Below are positions 59,552 to 60,151 of a DNA stretch of 64,000 nt, piece by piece. Origin of the DNA: Rutstroemia sp. NJR-2017a BVV2 (lineage: Eukaryota; Ascomycota; Leotiomycetes; Helotiales; Rutstroemiaceae); NCBI GenBank assembly GCA_002946415.1, contig NJPS01000045.1, forward strand, positions 434,001-498,000. Direction: 5' to 3'. A program made the position numbers and the translations under genes. The notes under the pieces are model-generated. The model worked only from the letters and a program-made list of their open reading frames with translations, did no database searches and was not told the DNA's origin. How positions within the stretch are numbered: the stretch's first letter is position 1; each line of letters begins with the position of its first letter.

Positions 59552-59999
59552 ATCCAGGTCGTCTTTCAGCAACTTGGGGATAGTTTAGACTGGTGAAAGC
59601 AATGATTTCGGAAGGCTACTGTTCGGCGAATGTTTCGAAAGGTGCTTTCCAGTCTGCTTTCCAGTCCATTGACTGTGGCTGGAATCTTGCTACAATTGCT
59701 TCAAAATGGCAATAAATGTTAGCTCGTCGACTCGAGGCGATTTTGAAGTCTTATGTAAGCAGTACTCTCTAAGTTGTCAGAATTAGAACATTATATTACC
59801 GACGATTATAGCTTCATGACTCCCCGCTTGCTTCTTGAGGATTTTCGATTTTTAAATCTTTTGTCATGAATGTGCGGGTTATATATGGATAGAAGTTACC
59901 ACTGGATTAGAAACTGTTGTGTAAGCGCTTCTACGAAAGTATTGATATATTATCATTTTACTTCGCCCTATCATCAAACAGCAGCGTCTTCAGCGCTAA
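59552..59999. other. Intergenic between the release-factor gene and tRNA-Thr
   Basis: 448 bp, upstream of both divergent genes. Moderately AT-rich; nothing else recognised. Confidence 0.5.
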
Positions 60000-60006
60000 G
60001 CCTTCT

Positions 60007-60018
60007 TAGCTCAGTTGG
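60007..60018 (+). promoter_or_regulatory. RNA polymerase III A box
   Basis: TAGCTCAGTTGG fits the A-box consensus and lies wholly upstream of the D-arm insert. Confidence 0.85.
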
Positions 60019-60022
60019 TAGA

Positions 60023-60077
60023 GTCAGTATACCCTTGCTTTGATACCTAACCACATAAATTCTAACATCATCTCCAG
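60023..60077 (+). other. 55-bp spliceosomal-intron-like insert inside the tRNA D-arm
   Basis: It begins GTCAGT, ends TCTCCAG, has a TTCTAAC branch-like site at 60060-60066 (a second CCTAACC earlier) and is as long as ordinary introns in this window. Its exact removal restores the D-stem pair GCTC/GAGC. Canonical tRNA introns sit only at 37/38 in fungi, so this position cannot be served by the tRNA endonuclease in the usual way. Confidence 0.75.
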
Positions 60078-60091
60078 GCGCGACACTAGTA

Positions 60092-60105
60092 ACTCATACT
60101 AAGAA
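60092..60105 (+). other. Canonical 14-nt tRNA intron at position 37/38
   Basis: It lies one base after the anticodon AGU. The ACT at its start, and another ACT within it, can pair with the anticodon as is usual in pre-tRNAs. Confidence 0.75.
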
Positions 60106-60119
60106 ATGTCGAGGTCAAC

Positions 60120-60130
60120 GGTTCGACTCC
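60120..60130 (+). promoter_or_regulatory. RNA polymerase III B box
   Basis: GGTTCGACTCC is a perfect match to the B-box consensus GGTTCGANTCC. Confidence 0.9.
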
Positions 60131-60146
60131 GTTAGAAGGCAATTAA

Positions 60147-60151
60147 TTTTT
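60147..60151 (+). terminator. Pol III oligo-T terminator
   Basis: Five T residues six bases after the discriminator of the tRNA; a second T run follows at about 60158-60162. Confidence 0.8.

Follow-up and report, generated by a model that had tools for sequence, protein, structure and literature searches.

Putative spliceosomal introns in four families of nuclear tRNA genes of Rutstroemia sp. NJR-2017a BVV2

An interrupted tRNA-Thr(AGU) gene

The window analysed here, a stretch of 64,000 nucleotides from Rutstroemia sp. NJR-2017a BVV2, contains at 60000..60141 on the forward strand a tRNA-Thr(AGU) gene with two inserts, one of 55 nt delimited by GT and AG and one of 14 nt at position 37/38. 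The longer insert is very probably a U2-type spliceosomal intron residing in a working gene of Pol III type, and four tRNA families of this genome appear to carry such introns. Their assignment to the U2 type is based on their ends and branch motif, and from these sequences we infer that they are spliced in vivo. What seems to be new is the identity of the host genes, their number and the apparent use of two splicing machines for one precursor.

Organization of the gene is given in Table 1. The initial annotation of the window had described a tRNA-Thr(AGU) gene interrupted in its D-arm by a GT-AG insert, and both coordinates and fold bear this out: when 60023-60077 are removed, the acceptor, D, anticodon and T stems are fully paired. 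The 73-nt tRNA without stem mismatch that was proposed there was likewise recovered, as ARAGORN reports a 73-nt tRNA-Thr(agt) once both introns are taken out. With only the GT-AG insert removed, the program returns tRNA-Thr(agt) with a 14-nt intron, in agreement with the normal 37/38 intron of the annotation. The position of the longer insert, given as 22/23, has to be corrected, since its GT-AG ends place it at 23/24. The same joined sequence can be reached by one other cut only, located one base later, and the insert then has the ends TC...GG; in the preferred placement it ends in CTCCAG. Both internal promoter boxes and the T5 run, also annotated, are present, the A box being assigned by its consensus.

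Table 1. Features of the tRNA-Thr(AGU) gene in the window
Feature	Position	Strand	Basis
TATA-like ATATA, 55 nt upstream of the gene (weak evidence)	59945..59949	+	sequence
Exon 1: acceptor 5' strand, D-stem 5' strand, D-loop, positions 22-23	60000..60022	+	sequence, fold fit
A box TAGCTCAGTTGG, intact, upstream of the insert	60007..60018	+	sequence
55-nt GT-AG insert (putative spliceosomal-type intron) between positions 23 and 24	60023..60077	+	fold fit; both paralogues occupied at the same site
5' splice site of the insert, GTCAGT	60023..60028	+	GTCAGT or GTGAGT across three Thr copies
Branch-point motif TTCTAAC, second A 12 nt before the insert 3' end	60060..60066	+	CTAAC/CTAAT at 11-12 nt in three Thr copies
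3' splice site of the insert, CAG	60075..60077	+	CAG in 3/3 Thr copies
Exon 2: positions 24-37, anticodon AGT at 60088-60090	60078..60091	+	fold fit
Canonical 14-nt tRNA intron at 37/38	60092..60105	+	fold fit; ARAGORN agrees after removal of the GT-AG insert
Exon 3: position 38 to discriminator	60106..60141	+	sequence, fold fit
B box GGTTCGACTCC	60120..60130	+	sequence
T5 run, likely Pol III terminator	60147..60151	+	sequence

Paralogous tRNA-Thr(AGU) genes

One genome was examined, that of the window's own host (Helotiales, Leotiomycetes; 43.4 Mb in 79 contigs). The initial annotation had called for a count of other Thr(AGU) genes, and whole-genome search revealed two more, both interrupted at the same site as the window gene. 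They are located about 25 kb apart on contig C56 and their inserts are 55 and 54 nt long; the window gene lies on C40. Across the three copies, the insert begins with GTCAGT or GTGAGT (GTSAGT), contains the branch motif TTCTAAC or TACTAAT and ends with CAG. When exons and the 37/38 intron are taken together, 84-86 of 88 positions match, insert interiors have diverged and the flanks of the loci appear unrelated by eye. The most diverged copy displays a compensated change from T-A to C-G at acceptor pair 5-68 and a one-sided change from C-G to T-G at 6-67.

The 73-nt mature Thr sequence, used as query against the genome, retrieved exon fragments at the three interrupted loci only. Since an insert-free copy should match this query from end to end, no such copy is seen. 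A pattern reaching from the anticodon to the B box detected the same three loci and one additional match, which was judged by eye to be due to chance and not a tRNA.

Three further families with inserts

Inserts delimited by GT and AG also occur in three other isoacceptor families. In tRNA-Ser(AGA), where the insert was first seen by eye among fetched tRNA loci, it is situated in the variable arm, immediately 5' of position 48, and is present in all three genes found. Survey and copy search detected three genes for tRNA-Pro(UGG), each interrupted at 10/11, and a single gene for tRNA-Ile(UAU), interrupted at 13/14. In total, ten interrupted genes of four isoacceptor families were found on six contigs. 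They contain nine distinct inserts of 52-59 nt, as two of the Ser genes are identical. Whole-gene or spliced queries against this single 79-contig assembly, with only the best candidates scored, found no insert-free copy of Thr(AGU), Ser(AGA), Pro(UGG) or Ile(UAU).

After removal of the inserts, all tested stems of the cloverleaf are paired in Thr, Ser and Pro, and Ile has a T.T mismatch at 31-39. Genes for Thr, Pro and Ile additionally carry a 37/38 intron, which is missing from Ser. Among the Ser genes a compensated T-A to C-G change is found at 3-70; the three mature Pro tRNAs are identical.

The Pro insert has the 3' end TAG in two of three genes, where it rebuilds TAGTTCAGTGG, and CAG in the third. 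In these two genes (loci L158 and L186, compared with L156) TAG flanks the insert on both sides, so that the 3' end of the intron rebuilds the A box. This repetition of TAG may reflect the mechanism of insertion or selection on the promoter.

Splice signals and divergence of inserts

All nine distinct inserts share GT, CTAAY and YAG. Their 5' sites are GTAAGT/A/C, GTCAGT, GTGAGT and one weak GTAATT; GTCAGT, found in two Thr copies, and GTAATT, found in one Pro copy, are less than optimal 5' sites. The branch A of CTAAY lies 10-15 nt before the 3' end in every case. For comparison, 19 mRNA introns predicted in the window were inspected, a small and noisy set in which several predictions are probably false: seven contain NCTRAY, which in six of them (46-77 nt long) stands about 10-20 nt from the end and in the seventh far upstream. 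TTTT is absent from the interrupted tRNA genes (9/9 entries), a weak observation, as only 4 of the 19 predicted mRNA introns have it.

Paralogue pairs are identical at 84/88 to 83/83 positions of exons and 37/38 intron, their inserts at 23-40 of 55-62. This is best seen in two Pro genes, with 83/83 identical positions in exons and 37/38 intron and 23/57 in the inserts. Conserved signals combined with free interiors are the pattern expected of inserts that must be spliced out, which suggests that these are.

Survey and chance controls

For the survey, ungapped B-box patterns were listed genome-wide, 160 places were fetched and tRNA folds were fitted to them with and without GT-AG removal. Pattern GGTTCRANYCC had 328 matches (100 listed) and GGTTCGANTCC had 113 (100 listed); all 70 matches of GGTTCGANCCC were listed, four of which, on C74, were dropped as duplicates of C25. 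After leaving out known genes, 124 new places were obtained, all of which were fetched; of the 90 matches of GGTTCAANTCC, 36 were fetched. The survey covers T-arms that conform to these four patterns, and not GGTTCAANCCC, so four families represent a lower bound. On C25 and C74, tRNA or pattern matches stand at identical coordinates (e.g. 983632, 1047262, 1085899); C74 appears to duplicate C25 at greater length, which doubles gene counts there.

Uninterrupted tRNA genes were recovered as well. At the strict setting, 52 tRNA anchors fit without GT-AG removal. An earlier list of 40 uninterrupted entries, three of them from a viral contig and one a Ser(AGA) gene under a false parse, includes Lys, Asn, Arg, Ala, Val, Gly, Leu, Glu, Asp, Gln and Pro(AGG) genes; several isotypes, e.g. 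Phe and Tyr, are in neither this list nor the interrupted set.

Boundaries of the inserts were set by the tRNA fold and not by splice motifs. When all 256 pairs of start and end dinucleotides were compared with no branch condition, only GT-AG restored every one of the seven rescued 3' anchors, and did so at two strict settings; the runner-up restored four. At the loose setting 12 anchors were rescued, GT-AG accounting for seven; the other five look spurious and lie beside Gln and Trp genes. With loose fold settings, no Ser gene was among those needing rescue.

A finder requiring GT...CTRAY...AG and a full fold after removal detected seven distinct 3' anchors in 322,580 bases from 236 sources, many of which overlap, and its listed hits fall only in the four families described above. 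Reversed sequence gave none, each of ten block shuffles gave none, and eight controls with altered signals gave 0-2 anchors, each already in the real set. Chance GT-AG matches are ruled out by these controls. Further, CTAAY stands at the right distance in 9/9 inserts, compared with 1-7% of shuffled interiors. Applying the largest shuffle rate in each of the four families yields approximately 1e-5, a figure that is a guide only, since copies within a family are not independent and some of the finders required the branch motif (the dinucleotide test did not, nor did detection of the Ser insert by eye).

Transcription signals

Pol III genes need T-run terminators, and a run of at least four T is found 5-23 nt downstream of all ten interrupted genes. 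The B box is present; it was through the B box that the Pro and Ile genes were found. In Thr and Ser the A box is intact. The Pro and Ile inserts split it, so transcription of these two needs another explanation. TATA-like elements occur 47-49 nt upstream of all three Pro genes, and none was found within 70 nt for the Ile gene, one Thr gene and one Ser gene.

Alternative explanations

Of the two options raised by the initial annotation, removal by the spliceosome ahead of tRNA processing is favoured and silencing by insertion is disfavoured, since all copies found are interrupted, and conservation extends to splice signals and mature tRNAs but not to insert interiors. Intact paralogues or decayed stems would speak for silencing, and a check of this genome for both found neither. 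That the interrupted genes are pseudogenes, with working tRNAs supplied by unassembled copies or other isoacceptors, is very unlikely. The assembly is not closed, and according to a 2014 review, D- and T-arm insertions in eukaryotes are mostly confined to a single gene out of many synonymous ones, and such genes are supposed pseudogenes (PMC4090602). Here, on the contrary, 3/3 Thr, 3/3 Ser, 3/3 Pro and 1/1 Ile copies found are interrupted, for which reason a single-gene pseudogene was rejected. Mature sequences are conserved, with stem changes compensated and mature Pro the same in all three genes, and neutral inserts are not expected to keep three splice signals. In addition, inosine tRNAs are generally held to be required for ACC/ACU and UCC/UCU codons. 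An assembly error is unlikely, given nine distinct insert sequences on six contigs.

Removal by the tRNA splicing endonuclease, with the inserts acting as non-canonical bulge-helix-bulge (BHB) introns, is highly improbable as well. D-arm introns of this type, 22/23 among their sites, are known from archaea, and Cyanidioschyzon merolae has introns at non-canonical sites (PMC4090602); 37/38 introns are clearly used in this genome. However, the central 4-bp helix of a BHB reaches at most 3/4 pairs, in one Thr copy, and otherwise 0-2 (three offsets, 9 entries), and the fold of the window insert does not surpass that of shuffled versions (z -0.32). BHB processing does not require GT, CTAAY and AG, which are kept while interiors are not, and the sites (23/24, variable arm, 10/11, 13/14) differ from the 37/38 position used in fungi. 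As for self-splicing introns of group I or II, or chance GT-AG matches, their probability is negligible: 52-59 nt is too short for either group, as self-splicing introns are far longer, and chance is excluded by the controls. Group I introns do interrupt bacterial tRNA genes (PMC8450103), but Rfam reported no such family at the window locus.

Proposed maturation

If the inserts are spliceosomal introns, maturation can be outlined as follows. Pol III would start upstream of the acceptor stem of each gene and transcribe as far as the T-run, as the boxes and T-runs suggest. The spliceosome would then recognise the short intron by its 5' site, CTAAY and YAG and join the exons in the nucleus, in keeping with conservation of these signals. 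The D-arm, or in Ser the variable arm, could form only after intron removal, which would let RNase P, tRNase Z and the tRNA endonuclease act. The tRNA endonuclease measures from the folded tRNA body. Finally, it would remove the 37/38 intron of Thr, Pro and Ile, an order suggested by what is known of this enzyme.

A stronger claim is also likely. All cellular tRNA-Thr(IGU), tRNA-Ser(IGA), tRNA-Pro(UGG) and tRNA-Ile(UAU) would require the spliceosome, the Thr, Pro and Ile precursors would pass in fixed order through two unrelated machines, the spliceosome in the nucleus and then the endonuclease, and decoding of Thr, Ser, Pro and Ile codons would depend on the capacity for mRNA splicing. If true, there is a further way of splicing nuclear tRNA, essential tRNAs are made only via the spliceosome, a Pol III transcript other than U6 is an obligate spliceosome substrate and translation is coupled to mRNA-splicing capacity. 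Moreover, four sites in one genome allow the entry of introns into non-coding genes to be addressed.

Relation to known introns

Spliceosomal introns are found in another kind of non-coding housekeeping RNA gene, namely ascomycete nuclear rDNA, where the hosts are transcribed by Pol I and are not tRNAs. The closest analogy is U6 snRNA of fission yeast, a Pol III RNA with an mRNA-type intron that is removed in maturation (PMC10484740). U6, however, belongs to the spliceosome itself, and reverse splicing near catalytic residues is the supposed origin of its intron (PMC10484740), whereas the hosts in this fungus are tRNAs of four families, with four sites. The only U6 match reported in the genome (106 nt; L072, G000:C23:42069-42174, minus strand) contains no intron.

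The 37/38 introns removed by the Sen endonuclease also interrupt nuclear tRNA genes, here including those for Thr, Pro and Ile, but the new inserts are placed elsewhere, have spliceosomal signals and lack a BHB. Introns in D, T and other arms, sometimes next to a 37/38 intron, are described for archaea, C. merolae and nucleomorphs (PMC4090602, PMC3978253). Those of archaea and C. merolae have BHB-type folds (PMC4090602), in contrast to the 5' site, branch and 3' site in 52-59 nt seen here; those of the Guillardia nucleomorph are only 3-24 nt long and are described as of unknown mechanism (PMC4090602).

Eukaryotic nuclear tRNA introns are treated as removed by protein endonucleases and located essentially at 37/38, apart from some algae (PMC4090602, PMC8450103), and the tRNAscan-SE 2.0 paper limits eukaryotic tRNA genes to one intron (PMC8450103). 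In the main text of the 2014 review on tRNA introns, the string 'spliceosom' does not occur (PMC4090602). No earlier report was found in a search of literature without bioRxiv preprints and most subscription papers, PMC3978253, PMC3400036, PMC13149111, PMC6461891 and PMC4494063 being among the sources. Among viral and prokaryote genome contigs, search for relatives gave one match, to a tRNA of a viral contig, attributable to chance.

Behaviour of tRNA finders

Introns of this kind would also explain why tRNA finders can overlook or mis-name such genes, and gene sets seemingly without these tRNAs could be re-examined. ARAGORN with default settings called no tRNA in the window; with introns allowed, it reported the uncut Thr gene as a false tRNA-Val. 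The Rfam tRNA model scores the uncut window gene at 38.7 bits, above the 29-bit threshold, taking the middle as one long insertion. The gene is not listed by the faster Rfam scan of the whole window, and in the whole-genome Rfam tRNA scan the interrupted Thr genes are absent from the 63 scored of 1404 candidates.

ARAGORN was further tried on eight entries, comprising two of the three Pro inserts (Pro C5a stands for C5b, their exons being identical). With introns allowed, uncut Thr genes were called Val or Lys, nothing was reported for Ile or for the two Pro genes tested, and Ser genes kept their name but received a false intron of 48-50 nt. After GT-AG removal the calls were Thr(agt) with a 37/38 intron of 14-15 nt, Ser(aga) with none, Pro(tgg) with one of 11 nt and Ile(tat) with one of 34 nt. 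A correct tRNA with a sensible intron was thus obtained only after GT-AG removal. A run with the intron range option, which effectively proceeded without introns and was too permissive for boundary placement, was left unused.

The parse of Ser with a 48-50-nt intron at 37/38 and a 20-nt variable arm, proposed by ARAGORN and, for one copy, by our own fitter, was rejected. The anticodon hairpin (ATTGA-CTAGAAA-TCAAT) is unbroken and immediately followed by the variable hairpin; under the GT-AG parse, no 20-nt arm has to be assumed.

Two other loci were noted. At L076 (G000:C4:210896-211286, minus strand), a tRNA-Leu(TAG) is accompanied about 200 bases away by a copy whose 3' part alone looks intact by eye and which illustrates a decaying tRNA gene in this genome. 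At L049 (G000:C34:1185143-1185793, minus strand), two long tRNA-like matches adjoin; ARAGORN reads one of them as Met(cat) with a 65-nt intron, and its acceptor pairs poorly by eye.
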